Source: Jiella sonneratiae
GTDB taxonomy: Bacteria; Pseudomonadota; Alphaproteobacteria; Rhizobiales; Rhizobiaceae
Reading direction: 5' to 3'
NCBI RefSeq assembly: GCF_017353515.1
Contig: NZ_JAFMPY010000018.1
Location: 62,001 to 126,000, forward strand
DNA length: 64,000 nucleotides
The notes below the pieces were generated by a model. That model did not search any database and was not told the DNA's origin. It saw only the letters and a program-made list of their open reading frames with translations. Shown here piece after piece: positions 6,697-63,752 of this stretch. The first letter of the stretch is position 1. Every line of letters begins with the position of its first letter. Position numbers and translations under genes: made by a program.

Positions 6697-7422
6697 CTAC
6701 AGTTCCAGCCGATAGTGGAACCGCTCGGTCGCACAGAGCGAGTGGCGGTGCTCGACGGGCGTGCCGTCGAGCGCCAGGGCCAGCCGCTCGATCGCGAGCA
6801 GCGGCGCGCCGACGGCGCAGCCGAGCCGCTCGGCCGCCGTGGCGTCGGCCGGGCTCGCCTTGAGCTTTTCGCTGGCCCGCGCGACGGTGATGCCGAATCG
6901 CTCCGAATAGAGCGCGTAGACGTTGTTCGGGATCGTCTCCATCTCGCCGAGGCCGGCGAACCGTTCGAGCGGCAAAGTGATTCGTTCCGAGATCACCGGC
7001 GTGCCGCCGAGATGGCGAACGCGTTCGATCCGCCAGACCTCCGCCCCGGTCGCAAGGCCGAGGATCGCGCGCTCCGCCTCGCTCGCCGCGCCGCGCGTCC
7101 GCGCCACCACCCGGCTTTCGGGAAAGATCCGCCCGCCGTCGTCTGAGGCGAGGCGGAAGAACTGGAACAGGATGCGGCTTTCCTCCGGCAGGGCGACGAA
7201 GGTCCCGCGCCCCTGCCGCCTGACCAGCAGGTGCTCCGCCGTCATGGCGTCGAGGGCCTTGCGCACCGTGCCCTGGCTGACGCCGAGTTCGCCGGCGAGC
7301 TGGAATTCGCTGGGCAGCATCGCGCCCGGCAGCCAGGCGCCGTCGATCAGCCGCTGGACGAGCGTGTCGCGGACCTGCCGGTAGAGCGGCGCGAATGCCG
7401 GGCCTTGTCTCGTTTCGCTCAT
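6697..7422 (-). CDS. GntR-family regulator (HutC/UTRA type)
   Basis: A 241-residue repressor with an N-terminal winged helix-turn-helix (LPSEFQLAGELGVSQGTVRK, about residues 30-70) and a C-terminal UTRA ligand domain. The latter is recognised by VWRIERVRHLGGTPVISE and the closing HRHSLCATERFHYRLEL. It is divergent from suyAB-slcC-comC and is the obvious candidate regulator of that operon. A palindrome overlapping the promoter at 7501-7518 fits a GntR dimer. The ATG at 7422 is preceded by GGAAGGA. The inducer is not known; sulfolactate or sulfopyruvate would be a logical guess. Confidence 0.88.
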   Translation of the reverse strand: MSETRQGPAFAPLYRQVRDTLVQRLIDGAWLPGAMLPSEFQLAGELGVSQGTVRKALDAMTAEHLLVRRQGRGTFVALPEESRILFQFFRLASDDGGRIFPESRVVARTRGAASEAERAILGLATGAEVWRIERVRHLGGTPVISERITLPLERFAGLGEMETIPNNVYALYSERFGITVARASEKLKASPADATAAERLGCAVGAPLLAIERLALALDGTPVEHRHSLCATERFHYRLEL

Positions 7423-48759: not shown

Positions 48760-48835
48760 GCCCAGGTAGCTCAGTTGGTAGAGCATGCGACTGAAAATCG
48801 CAGTGTCGGTGGTTCGATTCCGCCCCTGGGCACCA
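48760..48835 (+). tRNA. tRNA-Phe (anticodon GAA)
   Basis: A 76-base cloverleaf: acceptor stem GCCCAGG paired with CCTGGGC, D arm around AGCTCAGTTGGTAGAGC, anticodon loop CTGAAAA giving GAA, T arm with GGTTCGATTCC, and an encoded CCA end at 48833-48835. Its 3' end is the apparent insertion point of the integrase-bearing island that starts right after it, and the tRNA is intact. Confidence 0.97.
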
Positions 48836-49014: not shown

Positions 49015-49090
49015 TTTACGTATTTTCTACGTACTGAATTGTGCCATCGGGATAAATACGTATTGTGGTTCCTATAATACGTATTTGTGG
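49015..49090 (+). promoter_or_regulatory. Repeated TACGTA sites before the integrase
   Basis: Four TACGTA-type palindromes occur in 76 bases: TTTACGTATTTT (49015), CTACGTACTG (49028), AATACGTATTGTGG (49055) and AATACGTATTTGTGG (49076). The last two are direct repeats 21 bases apart, and the last overlaps the integrase start. They may be arm-type sites for integrase/excisionase or an autoregulatory operator. Confidence 0.5.
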
Positions 49091-50313
49091 AGTTCGCCGT
49101 GAATCACCTCAAAGCGACGCAATTGCGCGGGATCGCCGCGACCGGGAAAATTCAGAAATTCAATGACGGGGGTGGTCTTTATCTGCATGTGACGCCGAAG
49201 GGCTCGGCATCATGGCGGATTGAATACGCCGTCGCAGGGGAGCGCCGTTCCAAATCCTTCGGCAAATTTCCCGAGGTCTCGCTTGTCGAGGCCCGCGCAT
49301 CCAGAGATCGTCTGAAATCCGACATCGCCGGCGGCATCGATCCCGATCCGATGGTTTCTGCGCAAGAGCCGGCCGCCTCGGCGCCGAGCGCGCTTCTTTT
49401 CGGGGAGCTTGTCACTGAATATCTCGCGATCTTGCGGAAGACAGAGCCAGCCGTGCGGACAATCGCGAAAAACGAATGGCTCCTTCTCAAGCTCGCCGCG
49501 CCACTCCACGGCTTGCCTGTCGCCAGCCTGAGGGCATCGGACATTCTGCCGATCCTACAGCAAGTCGCTGCATCCGGCCGGCGCGAGAGCGCGGTGCGTC
49601 TGCGCGGCGTCATTGGTACGGTGTTCAATCACGCGATCCGCAACGACCTCGCTGAGCGAAATCCTGCCGACGCCCTCAAGGGTGTGCTTCCAAAGGTCGA
49701 GGTCGAAGGGCGGGCTGCCATCACCGATGAGCCCGAATTCGCGGTGCTCCTTCGAGCAATCGACAGTTACGACGAGCCGACGCTCCGCCATGCTCTTCAA
49801 TTCTCGGCACTCGTTTACGGCCGGCCGGTCGAGACGCGGACGATGCGCAAGGGCGAGATCGACTTCGCGAACTCTCTGTGGAATGTGCCACGGACGACGA
49901 TGAAGATGCGGCGGGACCATGTCGTCCCGCTGCCACGTCAGGCAATCGAAGTCCTGAAGCGGCAATTTGAGATCGCGCCCGGTGACATTGTCTTCCCGCA
50001 ACGGCGCAAGCAGGATCGACCCATCTCGGAAAACGCTCTGAACGTCGCCCTGGATCGCCTCGGCTATGGTTCGGGCATCCACACCGCGCACGGCTTCCGA
50101 TCCTCGGCCTCGACGATCCTCAACGAGCGCGGCTGGCGCTACGACGTGATCGAGGCAAGCCTCGCTCATGTCGATCCCAACGCCGTCCGCCGCGCCTACA
50201 ACCGGGCCGCCTACCTGAAAGAGCGCGCCGAGATGGCGCAAGCCTGGGCTGATCTGTGCGACGAGTTCAGGAAAGCCGGGAAGCGGCGGCGCGAGATGGA
50301 AAGCCTTATCTAG
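49087..50313 (+). CDS. Tyrosine-type site-specific integrase
   Basis: A 408-residue phage/island integrase. An N-terminal DUF4102-like arm-binding domain (about residues 10-95) includes NDGGGLYLHVTPKGSASWRI and KSFGKFPEVSLVEAR. A core-binding domain follows (about 105-200), then the catalytic domain. Catalytic residues are the Arg in YGRPVETRTMRKGEI, the His-x-x-Arg in HTAHGFRSSAST, the His in SLAHVDPN, and the Tyr in VRRAYNRAAYL. It resembles P4-type integrases that use tRNA 3' ends, and it lies 250 bases after tRNA-Phe. The start is GTG at 49087; a later GTG (AVNHL) is possible. Confidence 0.94.
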   Translation: MEFAVNHLKATQLRGIAATGKIQKFNDGGGLYLHVTPKGSASWRIEYAVAGERRSKSFGKFPEVSLVEARASRDRLKSDIAGGIDPDPMVSAQEPAASAPSALLFGELVTEYLAILRKTEPAVRTIAKNEWLLLKLAAPLHGLPVASLRASDILPILQQVAASGRRESAVRLRGVIGTVFNHAIRNDLAERNPADALKGVLPKVEVEGRAAITDEPEFAVLLRAIDSYDEPTLRHALQFSALVYGRPVETRTMRKGEIDFANSLWNVPRTTMKMRRDHVVPLPRQAIEVLKRQFEIAPGDIVFPQRRKQDRPISENALNVALDRLGYGSGIHTAHGFRSSASTILNERGWRYDVIEASLAHVDPNAVRRAYNRAAYLKERAEMAQAWADLCDEFRKAGKRRREMESLI

Positions 50314-50325
50314 CCAGGCTGCCAA

Positions 50326-50739
50326 TCATCCGAACCCGGATTCGGGCCAGTCGGTCCGGTCGTCACCCAGGAGGCGTTCGCCGTCGCGGGAGCGGTAGCG
50401 CACCGCATAGGGTGGATCGGTGAGGATGAAGTCCACCGAGCCTGCCGGCAGGGTGGCCATCACCGTCACGCAGTCGCCGAGGATGACCGTGTTGCGTGGA
50501 GTGTCCGCACCCCCGGGTGGCGGGGACGGGACTCGTTGCCCCGCCTCCCGGTCGGATTTGGCCTTGGCGTTGCGGATCACCAGGCGGCCGTCGATCGGCA
50601 GCGCGGTGAGCTTGAGGTTGAAGCCGTCGCCGTCGTCATGGCGGCAGGCGGAGCCGACCTTGGTCCAGAAGGTCCGGTCGCCGTCGCCCTCGACCACATA
50701 GACGCTGTGGCTGGGGACGGGTTTGGATTTCGATGTCAT
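50326..50739 (-). pseudogene. Fused, truncated remnant: plasmid-type protein plus DNA methyltransferase
   Basis: One 137-codon frame joins two normally separate genes. Residues 1-70 (PSHSVYVVEGDGDRTFWTKV, then NLKLTALPIDGRLVIRNAK) are the start of a small protein common on rhizobial plasmids and islands. After a junction near GQRVPSPPPGGADTPR comes the front of an N6/N4 DNA methyltransferase (NTVILGDCVTVMATLPAGSV) including its catalytic DPPY motif. The frame then ends at residue 137, where a full enzyme would need about 150 residues more. It looks like a deletion product and cannot encode a working methylase. Confidence 0.65.
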
Positions 50740-51201
50740 GGGTTAGTCTCCCGTTGGTTTGTCCGGCCACGCCCATCGCGGCCGGTCGGGTGACCTTCGG
50801 AGCTGGCCCGGACGGCCAGGCAAGGAGGCTCCGGCCGAGGGGCTCCCTTCAGGGACACGTCTGGATGCCTTGCCGGGTCGGACGGCCGGGTCCATCACCC
50901 CGACCGTTCCGGCTGCGTGGCCTGGCCGGCACACGGGAGAGCGCCGGCAGCGCCAATCCGCAACGCCCCCGTCCTGGCAGGGGTGAGACGATACGACCGG
51001 GCCACCTCTGTGCCGTCGGGCGCCCCTGAGCATGACGCTGCGGCTTGCCTTTCGGAGTGCTGCGTCATCCGGATGATGGAGATCCGGATACTACCGTGAA
51101 AAGATGGACGCGCCATAGAACGCCATGGCGGGGCCATTGAAACTTCTTCGCGGACGTGGAGGATGGCGACCATTGGCCATCGGTCAGCCGGGATCCGCAT
51201 A
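50740..51201. other. Intergenic region of the island
   Basis: About 460 bases with no supported gene, GC-rich and probably derived from the plasmid-type module to its left. Near its right end two identical self-complementary ATCCGGAT sites (51067-51074 and 51082-51089, 15 bases apart) may be an operator for the next gene. Confidence 0.45.
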
Positions 51202-52908
51202 ATGTCTGGTCGGTTCGCTCTGTTCGCGGCCTTGTCCGCGGTGCCACTTTTATTGGTTTTTGCGTCGGTCGACGGCGCTTCGGCCCGCTCCCAAAGCTTT
51301 GGCCCGTTTCGCGTCGACGACGCACGGCCGGACATCGTCCGCCTTGAGGGGATCATCGATAATCGGGCGGGGCTCGCCTACGACAGTGTCCGATGGTCTT
51401 TCCCCCACGCCAGGACGCTGGAACTTGCCAGTCCGGGCGGCAACCTGATCATCGCCCTGCAGATCGCGCAGGCGGTCTACCGCGACGGACTCGCGACGCG
51501 GATCCCAGCGGGCGACCAGTGCCTCTCTGCCTGCGCCTTCATCTTTTTGGCAGGACATGAGCGGGAGGCCAGCGGCAAGCTCGGCGTGCATCGGGTCGCC
51601 TCGGCGGCGGGCGACGTGATCGCTGCGCAGCTTATCCTCGGCGACATTGCCGAGTTCCTCGACCGGATCCAGGCATCGCCGCAAATTTTGAGGATCCTCC
51701 TTTCGACGCCCTTTGAGTCGATGCACGTCTTCGACGCCGACGAGATTGTCAGCCTCGGCATCAACCGCTCGGCGACGACCGGAAGTCCCGCGATTGGAGA
51801 GAAGACGGTGAAAACGGAATCCGTGGCCGCGCTTGTCCGCCGGTGCGACGAACTTGTGGCTTCCGACCTCGACGACCGAAGGCCGGACGGGATCGCCGGG
51901 GTGCCGCTTGAGAGCATCGAGGCAGCCAAGGCCGTCGCGGCCTGCGAGGTGGCGGTCAAGGCGCAGCCGGGCGAGGTTCGACTCGGCTTCGAATTGGCGC
52001 GCTCACTGCAGGCGGACGGTTCGCGGGAGGAGGAAACGCTCGTCCAGTACCGCGAGGCTGCGGAACTCGGCTATCCGGCGGCGCAGACCGCACTGGGATT
52101 GCTTTACGCGACCGGCCGAGGCGTCGCGCGCGACACGGCCGCGGCCGAGACCTGGTTCAATAAAGCCGCAGAGCAGGGAAGCGCCGAGGCAAGGCAGGTG
52201 CTCCACGACCTCACCGAGCCTACGAAGACGAAAGAAGTGGAAGGAAGGGTGCTGCTCGGAACCCTAGGGGGGCGCACCGTCCAGGAAGTCTATGATCTCG
52301 TTGGCGCGAATGGTGATCTTTCGGGGCCGCTGCCCGAACTGGTGCCGGAAGGTACGTTGCAGGCAGCCAACAATCAGTATGCGAAAGGCGCGACACGTTC
52401 CGACGTCATCCAGTCTATGCGCCGAGCACAGGACGAGTTGGTGGCGAGGATCTGGAGAACGCGGGATCCCGACCTGCCGGTGACGTCGGTCAATGAGTTC
52501 ATGACGCTGGCCTCGATGATCGAGCGCGAGACCGCGGTTCCCTCGGAACGCCCGCGTGTCGCGGCGGTCTTCATGAACCGGCTGAGGAAGGGAATGAGGT
52601 TGCAATCCGATCCGACCGTCCTTTATGGCATCCGCGGCGGGAAAGGCGCGTCCGAGGACCGGCCAATGACGGTCTCCGATCTCGCCAGCTACAGCCCTTA
52701 CAATACCTACATCATCAAGGGCCTGCCGCCTGGCCCCATCGCCAATCCTAGTGGAGGGTCCCTGGAGGCCGCGGCGCATCCGGCAAGAACCGACGACCTT
52801 TACTTCGTTTCCGACGGTAAGGGTGGACACGCCTTCGCGTCCAACCTCTCCGATCATGCCCAGAACGTTCGCTTATTCAGGCAGAGCACGGCCAATTCTT
52901 CGCAGTAG
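51202..52908 (+). CDS. ClpP-like / Sel1 / MltG fusion protein
   Basis: A 568-residue exported protein with three joined parts. Residues 1-28 are a signal peptide. About residues 45-190 form a ClpP/crotonase-fold domain of the COG3904 kind: ELASPGGNLIIAL, probable nucleophile Ser109 in QCLSACAFIF and His130 in LGVHRVAS. About 205-260 is a CDELVAS...AC module, and one Sel1 repeat follows (YATGRGVARDTAAAETWFNK). About 345-560 is an MltG/YceG endolytic transglycosylase domain with Glu441 in ASMIERETAV matching the catalytic Glu, then LQSDPTVLYGI and SYSPYNTYIIKGLPPGPI. It probably acts on peptidoglycan strands in the periplasm. An ATG at 51163 gives 13 extra residues; the 51202 start gives the better signal peptide. 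Confidence 0.85.
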   Translation: MSGRFALFAALSAVPLLLVFASVDGASARSQSFGPFRVDDARPDIVRLEGIIDNRAGLAYDSVRWSFPHARTLELASPGGNLIIALQIAQAVYRDGLATRIPAGDQCLSACAFIFLAGHEREASGKLGVHRVASAAGDVIAAQLILGDIAEFLDRIQASPQILRILLSTPFESMHVFDADEIVSLGINRSATTGSPAIGEKTVKTESVAALVRRCDELVASDLDDRRPDGIAGVPLESIEAAKAVAACEVAVKAQPGEVRLGFELARSLQADGSREEETLVQYREAAELGYPAAQTALGLLYATGRGVARDTAAAETWFNKAAEQGSAEARQVLHDLTEPTKTKEVEGRVLLGTLGGRTVQEVYDLVGANGDLSGPLPELVPEGTLQAANNQYAKGATRSDVIQSMRRAQDELVARIWRTRDPDLPVTSVNEFMTLASMIERETAVPSERPRVAAVFMNRLRKGMRLQSDPTVLYGIRGGKGASEDRPMTVSDLASYSPYNTYIIKGLPPGPIANPSGGSLEAAAHPARTDDLYFVSDGKGGHAFASNLSDHAQNVRLFRQSTANSSQ

Positions 52909-55652: not shown

Positions 55653-55695
55653 ATGCCCACCATAATCGACTGCAATGAGTAAAGCGGATTAGAGC

Positions 55696-56841
55696 TCAGT
55701 GAGCCGGCAGCCGGTCTCTGGCAATCGCGACATGCAGGTGGGCACCGTGCAACAGCGCTGCATCGTTGAAATCGAACGCCGGGTTATGAAGCGGCGCGGA
55801 GGTCTCGCCGTTGCCGATAAACGCAAAGCATCCGGGCACATGGTCGAGGAAGCGCGCAAAGTCTTCAGAGGCGGTCATGGGGTCCGCTGTCGCATTGACG
55901 TGGCCGGAGACCGAATGCGCGACGGTGGCAAAGGCTGAGGTCAGGTCGGCGTCGTTTACGAGCGGAACGAACTCGCGGGAATAGCTCACCCGGGCAGCGA
56001 TACCGTGCAAAGTGGCAATGCCCGACGCCATGCGACGCATCTCGTCCTCGATCGTCGCCGAAACCTTGGCGGAGAAGCTGCGTGCATCGCCGAGGATTCG
56101 GGCTTGGCCGGGAAGCACGTTGCGCGTGCCATCGGTGAGAAGCTCGGTCACGGAAACGACACCCACGTCGGATGGGTTCAGCCGGCGGGAGACGATGGTC
56201 TGCAACTCCACGACCAGAGCGCAGGCCGGGACCATCACCTCACGCCCCCAATGCGGGCGGGCGGCGTGTCCGCCCTTGCCCTCCAGCACGATCTCGAAAA
56301 TATCCTCCGCGGACATGATCGCTCCGGGGCGCGTCTCGACATGTCCGACCGGCAGGCCCGGCAGATTGTGCAGCCCGAAGATTTCATCGAACGGAAACCG
56401 GACCATCAGCCCGGCCTCGATCATGGCCGATGCGCCTTTTCCCCATTCTTCGGCCGGCTGAAAGATAAAGCGGATCGTACCGTCGAAGCCGCCTTCCTCG
56501 GCCAGAAGCTTCGCCGCCCCAAGCAGCATCGCCGTGTGTCCGTCATGACCACAAGCGTGCATCGTGCCCGGGTTGACCGAAGACCACTCGGCACCAGTCG
56601 CCTCGGTAATGTGCAGGGCGTCCATGTCGGCGCGGAGCGCAATGGCGCGGTTGGAGGTACCGCGCCGCAAGGTCCCGACGACACCGGTGCCGCCTATGCC
56701 TTCGACGACCTCCAGGTTGAAGCCGCGCAAGGTATCGGCGACGAAGGCCGCAGTGCGGCGCTCTTCAAAGCCGAATTCAGGATGGCGGTGCAAGTCGCGG
56801 CGCCAGCCGGCCATCAGATCAAGGGTCGCCAACGGAATCAT
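55696..56841 (-). CDS. M20D amidohydrolase (hippurate hydrolase-like)
   Basis: A 381-residue metal-dependent amidohydrolase of the M20D/HipO/IAA-amino-acid hydrolase group. The opening WRRDLHRHPEFGFEE, metal motif MHACGHDGHTAMLLGAAKL (with the Cys and two His), FIFQPAEEWGKGA (Glu pair), FGLHNLPGLPVG and the final NDAALLHGAHLHVAI are all intact. It cleaves N-acyl amino acids; the acyl group is unknown. It ends near the IS element and is downstream of the sensor kinase on the same strand, 57 bases apart, so the two may be cotranscribed. Confidence 0.92.
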   Translation of the reverse strand: MIPLATLDLMAGWRRDLHRHPEFGFEERRTAAFVADTLRGFNLEVVEGIGGTGVVGTLRRGTSNRAIALRADMDALHITEATGAEWSSVNPGTMHACGHDGHTAMLLGAAKLLAEEGGFDGTIRFIFQPAEEWGKGASAMIEAGLMVRFPFDEIFGLHNLPGLPVGHVETRPGAIMSAEDIFEIVLEGKGGHAARPHWGREVMVPACALVVELQTIVSRRLNPSDVGVVSVTELLTDGTRNVLPGQARILGDARSFSAKVSATIEDEMRRMASGIATLHGIAARVSYSREFVPLVNDADLTSAFATVAHSVSGHVNATADPMTASEDFARFLDHVPGCFAFIGNGETSAPLHNPAFDFNDAALLHGAHLHVAIARDRLPAH

Positions 56842-61342: not shown

Positions 61343-61405
61343 AAGAAGAATTATGGAAGATTTTGGTTGCGCAGCCCGGCCAATGGGTTATCCTTTCCAT
61401 AAATC

Positions 61406-61975
61406 ATGGACAAAAGTCGCGCCTCTCTCCGCTCCTTCGGCTATGCCCGCGTCTCCACCGTCGGCCAGACCCTCGAGGCTCAGCTCGAGGAGCTGCACGC
61501 CGCCGGATGCACGACCGTCTTCCGCGAAAAGGTCTCCGGCGCCAAGGCCGACCGCAAGGAGCTGAAGAAGCTCCTCGCCACCCTCGGCCCCGGCGATGAG
61601 CTGGTGGTCACCCGCATCGACCGCCTGGCCCGGTCGACCTTCGACATGTTCGCCATCGTCAAGCGCATCGTCGACGCCGGTGCGCGGTTCCGGTCGCTGG
61701 CCCAGCCCTGGGCCGATACCGACGACAGCACCGGCCGCCTGATGCTCGCAGTGCTTGGCGGTCTCGCCGACGTCGAGCGGGATCTGATCAAGACCCGCAC
61801 CGCCGAGGGCCGCGCCCGCGCCAAGGCGCGCGGTGTGAAGATGGGGCGGCGCCCGAAGCTGACGTCGGCCCAAAAGGCCGAAGCGCTCGAACGCAAGGCC
61901 AATGGCGAGCCGCACATGTCGATCGCCCGTTCGTTCAACGTCAGCAACCAGACGATTGGACGGCTGCGGCCATGA
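61406..61975 (+). CDS. Serine recombinase (resolvase/invertase)
   Basis: A 189-residue small serine recombinase. The catalytic Ser is in FGYARVSTVGQTLEAQLEEL. The LVVTRIDRLARSTFDMFAIV Arg cluster, VERDLIKTRTAEGRARAKAR helix and a C-terminal HTH (MSIARSFNVSNQTIGRLRP) are intact. It is clearly different in sequence from the one at 58630, so they are not a duplicated pair. It overlaps the WGR remnant by four bases, an arrangement seen on rhizobial plasmids and islands. Confidence 0.93.
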   Translation: MDKSRASLRSFGYARVSTVGQTLEAQLEELHAAGCTTVFREKVSGAKADRKELKKLLATLGPGDELVVTRIDRLARSTFDMFAIVKRIVDAGARFRSLAQPWADTDDSTGRLMLAVLGGLADVERDLIKTRTAEGRARAKARGVKMGRRPKLTSAQKAEALERKANGEPHMSIARSFNVSNQTIGRLRP

Positions 61976-62236
61976 CGGTGCAGCTGGACCTTATAGACTG
62001 CCTTATGGCCTCCCTGCCGCCGCGCCTCTATCTGTGCCGGATCAATTCCAAGCAGCGCTCGTCGCGCTTCTACGTGCTGGCAATCGAGCCAACGCTGTTC
62101 GGCGGCTATGCCCTCACGCGCGAGCCGGATTGGCCGCGGCGGCCGGGTGATGCGGCAGTTCTTCGCGACGGCCGAGGCCGCCGTGAGGGAGTATGGTCGG
62201 CTCCGTCGGGTAAAGGGGCGCCGCGGCTACGCGTGA
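61972..62236 (+). pseudogene. WGR-domain protein gene with frameshift deletion
   Basis: The gene starts normally (MTVQLDLIDCLMASLPPRLY, then SKQRSSRFYVLAIEPTLFGG). After ALTRE the frame slips: a shifted frame resumes RIGRGGRVMRQFFATAEAA and continues to a TGA at 62234-62236. In intact WGR proteins the joint reads REWGRIGRGGR, so about five bases covering the Trp-Gly codons are missing near 62127. The read-through frame continues to 62280 with unrelated sequence. WGR domains bind nucleic acids; this copy should be inactive. It overlaps the recombinase stop (ATGA). Confidence 0.75.
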
Positions 62237-62372
62237 CGAGACGGGCTTCCTGCGTGGCGGCTTCGCTGGCGCCGAGATGAAACAGACTACAATGGAACTG
62301 TTTCAAACGGTCCGCTGGCCAGTCTAGACTTTCATGGCATGCTCGAAGGTGGGTCCAGGGAGGGATCGAACT

Positions 62373-63752
62373 GTGTGGCTTTCATCGCGGGGGAAGAGCC
62401 AAGTGGCCACGTTGGGCGGATTGGCCTCGGTGATAGCGATATGCATGGTTGCAACCCACGCTTCCGGTAAAACTCAAACCTTTGGTGCCTTCACCATCGA
62501 CGATGCCACTCCGACCGTCATCCGGTTGAAGGGCCAGATCACAGCGCGCGAAAGCTGTAATTTCAGGGCGGCCCTGCGCGCTGCGCCGCAAGCACGGACG
62601 GTGGAACTCGACAGCCCAGGCGGCTCGCTGATCATCGCCCTCGAAATCGCCGACACGATCCTGGACGAACAGCTTTCGACTGTCGTCCCGCAAGACGCCC
62701 AATGTCTCTCCGCCTGCGCCTTCGTCTTCTTCGCGGGCTCAGGGCGTGAGGTGAAGGGCGCGCTCGGCGTTCACCAGATTGCCTCGACGCAGTCGAACGA
62801 CTTTCAGTTCGGGCAGCTGAATTTGTCAGATGCCGCCGACTTCATGAACCGAGCGGGCGTCAGCCCGGGGGTGCTACCCATCATGCTGGTGACGCCGCCG
62901 GATCAGATGCATGTCTTCAGTCAGTCCGAGATCGCGAGCCTTCGGATCAATCGGACGGCGGCGCCGTCCCTTGGCTTGAGCTCGCAGAGACCGGCTGGTC
63001 CGACTCCAGACGAGCCAACGGAAGCTGCGGAAATCGACAAGACAGTCCGGCTTTGTGAGGAGTTGGCGGCAGATCGCTTCGATCCCGCCCGCCCGGCTGG
63101 CGTGAAAGGGGTCTACTTCGAAAAAATCGAGGCCGATCGTGCCGTGCCGGCCTGCCGGGCAGCCCAGGCGGCGCACCCCACAGAACCACGCCTGCAATTT
63201 TTGTTGGGGCGAGCCCTGGATGCGTCTGGCTCGGAGGATGAGGCGGTTGCCTGGTTCCGCAAGGCGGCCGAGCAGGGGGACGCGGAAGGACAAGCTAGCC
63301 TTGGAGCCATGTATTCCGAGGGAACAGGCGTCGAGAAGGACCTGGTGCAGGCAGTCGCTTGGTTCCGCAAGGCCGCCGAGCAGGGCGATACGCGAGGACA
63401 GATCAGCCTTGGTAACATGTACGCGGACGGCACGGGCGTCGAAAAGGATCTGGCACAGGCGGTTGCCTGGTTCCGCAAGGCAGCCGAGCAGGGCGACGCG
63501 AGGGGGCAGACCGCTCTCGGCACCATGTATGCAAATGGTAGGGGCGTCGAGAAGGATCCGGCACAGGCGGTTGCCTGGTATCGCAAGGCGGCCGAGCAAG
63601 GTGATGCACCGATGCAAGCCTATCTAGGTGCTGTGTACTTAAATGGTATTTTGCTGCCAAAAGACGAAATAAAGGCTGAATTCTGGTATCGCAAAGCTGC
63701 AGAACAAGGAGATTACTCTGCAAAATTAGCGCTAGAGCGGATGGGAAAGTAG
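62373..63752 (+). CDS. Exported ClpP-like / Sel1-repeat protein
   Basis: A 459-residue protein related to the fusion at 51202 but without the MltG part. Residues 1-32 form a signal peptide; about 35-195 is the COG3904-type ClpP-like domain with ELDSPGGSLIIALEIAD, Ser113 in QCLSACAFVFF and His134 in LGVHQIAS. About 225-285 is the RLCEELAAD...PACRAAQ module, and about 290-455 holds four to five Sel1 repeats. GTG at 62373 is chosen because GGGAGGG lies nine bases upstream and the signal peptide is good; an ATG at 62334 also fits. The last 45 codons are much more AT-rich than the rest. A periplasmic protease or protein-binding role is likely. Confidence 0.8.
   Translation: MWLSSRGKSQVATLGGLASVIAICMVATHASGKTQTFGAFTIDDATPTVIRLKGQITARESCNFRAALRAAPQARTVELDSPGGSLIIALEIADTILDEQLSTVVPQDAQCLSACAFVFFAGSGREVKGALGVHQIASTQSNDFQFGQLNLSDAADFMNRAGVSPGVLPIMLVTPPDQMHVFSQSEIASLRINRTAAPSLGLSSQRPAGPTPDEPTEAAEIDKTVRLCEELAADRFDPARPAGVKGVYFEKIEADRAVPACRAAQAAHPTEPRLQFLLGRALDASGSEDEAVAWFRKAAEQGDAEGQASLGAMYSEGTGVEKDLVQAVAWFRKAAEQGDTRGQISLGNMYADGTGVEKDLAQAVAWFRKAAEQGDARGQTALGTMYANGRGVEKDPAQAVAWYRKAAEQGDAPMQAYLGAVYLNGILLPKDEIKAEFWYRKAAEQGDYSAKLALERMGK
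63241..63620 (+). repeat. 108-bp tandem repeats inside the Sel1 region
   Basis: The DNA segment beginning GCGGTTGCCTGGTTCCGCAA recurs at about 63243, 63351, 63459 and 63567, a period of 108 bases (36 codons), with few differences between copies. Such near-identical units can recombine and change the number of Sel1 repeats. Confidence 0.75.

Follow-up and report, generated by a model that had tools for sequence, protein, structure and literature searches.

A single gene in the window, i.e., the whole stretch of 64,000 nucleotides analysed here, joins a ClpP-fold head, one Sel1 repeat and an MltG (YceG) module in an exported-looking protein of 581 amino acids (51163–52908, forward strand). We consider it almost certain that this architecture is genuine and that it originated by a domain swap. 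As to its role, we narrowly favour a domain-swapped member of an exported protein family that would cut nascent glycan strands, the head placing or restraining the cutting module, as far as can be judged from the sequence.

The gene is one stop-free frame with an alternative start at 51202. This alternative, used in the original prediction, is an internal ATG at residue 14 of the longer frame, and the residues called Ser109, His130 and Glu441 there (correct for that start) are Ser122, His143 and Glu454 when counted from 51163. A signal-peptide-like start (residues 14–42, MSGRFALFAALSAVPLLLVFASVDGASA; 51202–51288), judged by eye in the translation, is followed by a ClpP-fold domain (about residues 43–208; 51289–51786) recognized from an AlphaFold2 model, a PDB fold search and a profile alignment to E. 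coli ClpP, by a single Sel1 repeat (residues 305–340; 52075–52182; Pfam PF08238, 32.3 bits with a cut-off of 30.7, E 1.4e-7) and by the MltG/YceG module (residues 341–570; 52183–52872; Pfam PF02618, E 1.1e-57), all on the forward strand. The last match reaches 196.1 bits (cut-off 32.4) over profile positions 52–274 of 275, and the tail also matches the NCBIfam model TIGR00247, "endolytic transglycosylase MltG", at 180.8 bits (cut-off 103.4). Single frame, Pfam, NCBIfam and fold search all agree with the original prediction of ClpP-like, Sel1 and MltG parts in one protein. The same prediction had allowed for two genes joined by a frameshift artefact; codon-position GC looks like that of coding DNA throughout the protein (GC3 0.80, 0.81 and 0.74 in its three parts), which argues against such a join, and as the open frame is also free of stops and frameshifts, we reject it. 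Scans for promoters and terminators returned nothing firm.

The ClpP-fold head and its exchangeable tails

The two halves of the fusion were modelled separately, the head with AlphaFold2. The head model (residues 41–346) has a mean pLDDT of 88.6, mostly above 90 within the ClpP-fold domain, and all 50 of the PDB matches listed by Foldseek are ClpP (best E 1.7e-6, probability 1.00), i.e., structure prediction confirms the fold that had been proposed from the letters. Viral ClpP-like proteins are even better fold matches to this model (best E 1.3e-10). Profile alignment of the head to E. coli ClpP gave E 7.7e-5 and a probability of 61.7; no Pfam match (CLP_protease) to the ClpP-like part of the fusion was seen at E 0.1, and one sibling of the fusion reached E 0.014, under the cut-off.

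Ser122 (51526–51528) and His143 (51589–51591), the two residues singled out earlier, align with the catalytic Ser97 and His122 of ClpP and are invariant in 22/22 rows of an alignment of exported ClpP-like proteins, all of which also carry the C-x-S-x-C and GVH motifs. The position of the ClpP catalytic Asp171 is occupied by Met187 (51721–51723; Met in 20 and Ile in two of the 22 family rows), so the standard ClpP triad is absent from the head and proteolysis by it is doubtful, which takes much from the earlier idea of a proteolytic trigger. Thus, compared with ClpP (peptidase S14), the head shares the ClpP/crotonase-type fold and the Ser–His pair but has neither the Asp nor the Pfam match. A proteolytic head would seem unlikely, and a binding or assembly module or a weak Ser–His hydrolase is more likely than a ClpP-type protease. 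Two cysteines, Cys120 and Cys124, flank the would-be nucleophile Ser in all 22 rows (51520–51534), and in an exported protein such a pair might serve as a redox switch.

Proteins with this head form an exported family for which we take COG3904 to be the label. At E 1e-20 or better, 39 of the 394 genomes searched in the family carry the head, as do 10 of the 397 searched in the order; the window's genome is counted in both. Only the window's own locus has an MltG tail among 52 head-family loci examined, a set that includes duplicates and the window's own locus and leaves out the weakest head matches. The tails of the other loci looked at are Sel1 arrays, two PAN domains, PG_binding_1 or unassigned (ten loci were run against Pfam), and one sibling in the same genome carries a PG_binding_1 tail (31.9 bits, cut-off 23), suggesting that peptidoglycan is a target they have in common. 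The exported ClpP-like PAN/Sel1 proteins of the same taxonomic family have heads 35–51% identical to that of the fusion, with the C-x-S-x-C and GVH motifs and, by eye, signal-like starts; unlike the fusion, they are without MltG in the 51 other loci examined. Three plasmid copies of the head family are annotated as "PAN domain-containing protein", and relatives of the ClpP-like domain were also found in eight viral contigs and in Agrobacterium phage Atu_ph08.

The window's genome has 15 head-related matches. The best alignments of the fusion to four Sel1-tailed paralogues stop at residues 343–350 (one secondary alignment at 360), close to the start of the MltG Pfam match at 341. As siblings differ by their tails and the homology to Sel1 paralogues stops at MltG, a domain swap is the favoured origin. 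Syntenic ClpP–Sel1 genes on other contigs are common to the window's genome and two relatives (G005 and G009). With Sel1, PAN, PG_binding and MltG tails that can be exchanged for one another, these related exported families resemble an envelope toolkit that has been described only poorly. The genome's ordinary mltG gene (L001, C27:8622–9449 and following) and another ClpP-like frame are neighbours in tail-to-tail orientation, which may be chance, given the 15 head-related matches.

A shortened MltG module and its rarity

The original prediction of an intact catalytic Glu in the MltG part holds: Glu454 (52522–52524) is Glu in 98/98 MltGs and aligns with the catalytic residue of 2r1f, and the fusion keeps all 25 columns that are invariant among these 98 proteins, Glu454 included. 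In E. coli MltG the catalytic Glu is E218, according to the accessible part of PMC8135044. Forty-eight columns are at least 95% conserved among the 98 MltGs, and the fusion keeps 44 of these and loses four; two of the four are Thr403 (Asn here, Thr in 94/98) and the "PEG" Glu (present in 94/98). The LysM-like half, described earlier as partly replaced, is so indeed, with the first 51 profile positions of PF02618 missing and "QAANNQYAKG" standing where the consensus of the MltG alignment is "PDTYxFxRG". Some ordinary MltGs (e.g., L029 and L048) depart from "PDTY" too, retaining the Thr. By eye, no membrane-anchor-like segment directly precedes the MltG domain, the hydrophobic start of the protein (cleaved or not) lying about 300 residues upstream. 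The model of the MltG half (mean pLDDT 74.8, and below 50 at protein residues 483–496 and 507–520, which include several invariant MltG residues) matches the MltG structures 2r1f, 8yq7, 4iiw and 8yoa. Set beside ordinary MltG/YceG (E. coli 2r1f, A. baumannii 8yq7, L. monocytogenes 4iiw), the fusion has in common the YceG domain, the catalytic Glu and the 25 invariant columns, but it shows no adjoining anchor by eye, lacks the 51 profile positions, sits behind a ClpP-fold head and Sel1, and is a second copy in its genome, located on an island.

A second copy is unusual, as MltG is almost always single-copy in the family: of the 394 genomes of the family, 392 have a YceG match, exactly one in 389 and two in three (G429, the window's genome and G431). 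The matches in G429 are two non-overlapping partial YceG pieces on two contigs and look like one split gene. The window's genome has its own intact MltG elsewhere, 54% identical to the fusion module. Among the matches listed for 201 genomes (its own and 200 relatives), a span of both halves was seen in the window's own genome only, and no match covered both halves in 80 of 156 named loci, 105 plasmid records, 18 phage records and one viral contig. The searches of genomes, named loci, plasmids, phages and the viral contig returned no orthologue of the fusion; within this material, the suspected rarity is borne out, the domain-architecture search having found ClpP–Sel1–MltG in the window's genome only.

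The extra MltG of G431, which is from a related genus, follows a caspase head in an exported-looking protein (L264:8998–11286; Peptidase_C14 at residues 29–252, YceG at 328–538) and keeps 24/25 invariant MltG columns. The caspase–MltG head is 73–75% identical to two caspase–Sel1 proteins up to residue 317, and MltG begins at about residue 324. This parallel caspase–Sel1/caspase–MltG join in another genus also favours the domain-swap reading, and the existence of a second, differently built protein with a protease fold and a wall cutter suggests that such proteins, though rare, are genuine and no accident. Five other genomes of the same genus carry a single MltG each, so the caspase–MltG protein is also patchy in its occurrence. 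None of the 331 plasmid records that it matched covers 80% of its length. Three further candidate rows (G682, G639 and G156) were opened and contained no MltG; they came from the matches listed in a search with at most two candidates scored per genome, in which absence counts for little.

The four caspase genes at L264:5103–13154 form a same-strand tandem run of caspase–Sel1, caspase–Sel1, caspase–MltG and caspase–PG_binding_1, all exported-looking. Gaps of a few bases separate the genes, or a slight overlap results where the second one is taken to start at 7312. The run illustrates how tails are swapped from one neighbour to the next. All four have His and Cys motifs that we take to be caspase-type. 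The caspase–MltG protein and a ClpP-like protein (L163) both end in a domain of some 180 residues that has no Pfam match and is 45% identical between them; the two head types thus appear to use the same pool of tails.

In the MltG tree, the fusion module belongs to a group of 12 rows in which four MltGs of its genus also lie (100/99), on an end branch of 1.52–1.58 changes per column (median 0.04–0.08), and the caspase–MltG module is placed elsewhere, as sister to the MltG of its own genome (100/99). A recent copying of the genome's own MltG was rejected in the form of a clade with the four genus MltGs (p-AU 0.0148) and a single origin of both fusions received a p-AU of 0.077, in tests on groups that were named after the tree was seen and with the fusion as a long branch. 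A single origin of the ClpP–MltG and caspase–MltG fusions would thus be disfavoured.

An island beside tRNA-Phe

The mobile context that the original prediction had raised was found. The left edge of the island is a tRNA-Phe gene (48760–48835, forward strand), where homology of all nine genus relatives to the window stops at most two bases from the last base of the tRNA; past this point the nine show no homology to the window over the roughly 8–10 kb compared. A tyrosine integrase lies beside the tRNA (49087–50313, forward strand; Pfam Phage_integrase, E 9.6e-23), and mean GC drops there from about 0.69 to about 0.62. The accompanying statement that MltG is not part of mobile DNA was too strict, as MltG genes are present on some plasmids. 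With the 3' end of the tRNA as query no attR was found; the contig ends 3.6 kb past the window.

Island content was read from its first 18.7 kb, which includes an IS5-type transposase, a second ClpP–Sel1 gene and two Sel1 genes. A paralogue at 62334–63752 (forward strand) encodes an exported ClpP-like protein that has five Sel1 matches, lacks MltG and is 44% identical to fusion residues 39–350. The stretch 61346–62307 holds a serine recombinase (61406–61975) and a small WGR-like frame; it recurs many times across the genus, whole or in part, at 78–92% identity, and is probably a transposable unit. The M20 peptidase gene at 55682–56833 is repeated at 98% identity elsewhere in the same genome, on a different contig (C6:77096–78250). 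Beside the integrase, a short frame (50326–50739) matches the N-terminal part of DNA methyltransferase models and is apparently a methyltransferase remnant.

Possible role and its alternatives

We postulate that the MltG catalytic module was swapped in for the usual Sel1 tail, a stub of one Sel1 repeat remaining, and that the protein would be sent to the periplasm. There, the module would cleave nascent, uncrosslinked glycan strands, as MltG does, and the ClpP-fold head would place or restrain it, instead of a membrane anchor and LysM. Peptidoglycan as the target is supported by the alternative tails of both head types, which include PG_binding_1, and given that the catalytic residues are present, the LysM-like half largely absent and an anchor apparently so, any cutting is expected to be under the control of the new head. 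That the module is a working transglycosylase appears reasonably probable, because 25/25 invariant columns have been kept despite a very long branch. The explanation as a whole is weakened by the failure to find an orthologue, by the length of the branch with the loss of 4/48 conserved columns, and by a model of the MltG half that falls below 50 pLDDT over residues holding invariant positions. It is also weakened by the near loss of the LysM-like half, critical for MltG function (PMC12288455): in the available part of that source, the LysM part of E. faecalis MltG is vital and catalysis is not, and the accessible part of PMC8135044 describes MltG as cutting nascent strands, with its LysM domain proposed to help set product length.

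Two protease-like heads with an extra, shortened MltG point to a separate control of wall cutting, and both fusions are a natural test of a YceG domain working without its anchor and LysM-like half. More tentatively, exported protease-fold proteins of Rhizobiaceae-type bacteria may have captured MltG at least twice, with ClpP-fold and caspase heads, each time replacing a Sel1 tail. The products may then form a novel class of periplasmic transglycosylases that have no anchor and are governed by their heads, a protease-like module setting the place or the time at which the nascent wall is cut.

The same module could instead be a grip on glycan strands that replaces PG_binding_1 or Sel1 tails, its catalysis incidental or lost. 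PG_binding_1 tails in siblings of both head types, the degraded "PDTY" motif and LysM-like half of the fusion and the one invariant residue lost in caspase–MltG (24/25 kept) are all in keeping with a grip, but on so long a branch a mere grip would be expected to lose some of the invariant columns, and the fusion has kept every one of them, including the catalytic Glu; departures from "PDTY" are moreover seen in ordinary MltGs (L029 and L048), though these keep the Thr. We regard a grip as rather unlikely, and hold a similarly low opinion, if anything a shade lower, of a recombination by-product on the island, young or in decay and without selected function. An intact frame and active-site residues after great divergence speak against decay, as does the caspase–MltG protein of another genus, with its own genome's MltG as sister and the same kind of join; the by-product idea draws on the occurrence of the fusion in one genome only (within the searched material), on the very long branch of its MltG module and on an island that contains the IS5-type transposase, the methyltransferase piece, the 98%-copied peptidase gene and the repeated recombinase element.

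The original prediction had offered conjugation, lysis of invaders or phage defence as settings in which a proteolytic or sensing event on invasion triggers wall cleavage. Such a weapon or defence is very improbable, even with the island setting, the ClpP-like relatives in eight viral contigs and Atu_ph08 and the viral fold matches in its favour. At E 0.001 the fusion has no match among the PADLOC families, there are no conjugation or lysis families among the neighbouring genes scanned in the first 18.7 kb of the island, and no immunity-like partner was noticed, so these roles gain no support. The neighbouring downstream cyclase matches Pycsar cyclase models over its cyclase domain only; its homologues occur in Rhizobium plasmids, and the copy in pRL12, the sole record opened, was not seen paired with a fusion-type neighbour. 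An assembly or sequencing artefact is barely conceivable: the fusion is known from one genome, a draft assembly of 76 contigs, but the GC3 is coding-like on either side of a join that shows no stop or frameshift, and the MltG part differs from the genome's own intact MltG.

The favoured reading, a wall cutter attached to a protease-like head, has relatives among known proteins. Exported bacterial caspases with Sel1, PG_binding or Amidase_2 domains are already in print, four metacaspase–Amidase_2 proteins having been reported (accessible part of PMC3501461); like the fusion, they combine a protease-fold head with a wall-binding or wall-cutting domain, and the caspase–MltG protein is of the same kind. 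The window protein differs from them in its ClpP-fold head and in having MltG as the wall enzyme, and the term YceG is absent from the main text of PMC3501461. Published ClpP–MltG or caspase–MltG fusions were not found in the literature searched, most subscription journals being outside the reach of that search.

MltG is likewise the tail of a two-domain frame in three Methylococcaceae-type records (L080, L091 and L101), read from stop to stop. Their head is an aminotransferase class IV domain, presumably PabC-type; unlike the fusion, these frames match the YceG profile over positions 1–274 and have a metabolic enzyme as head.
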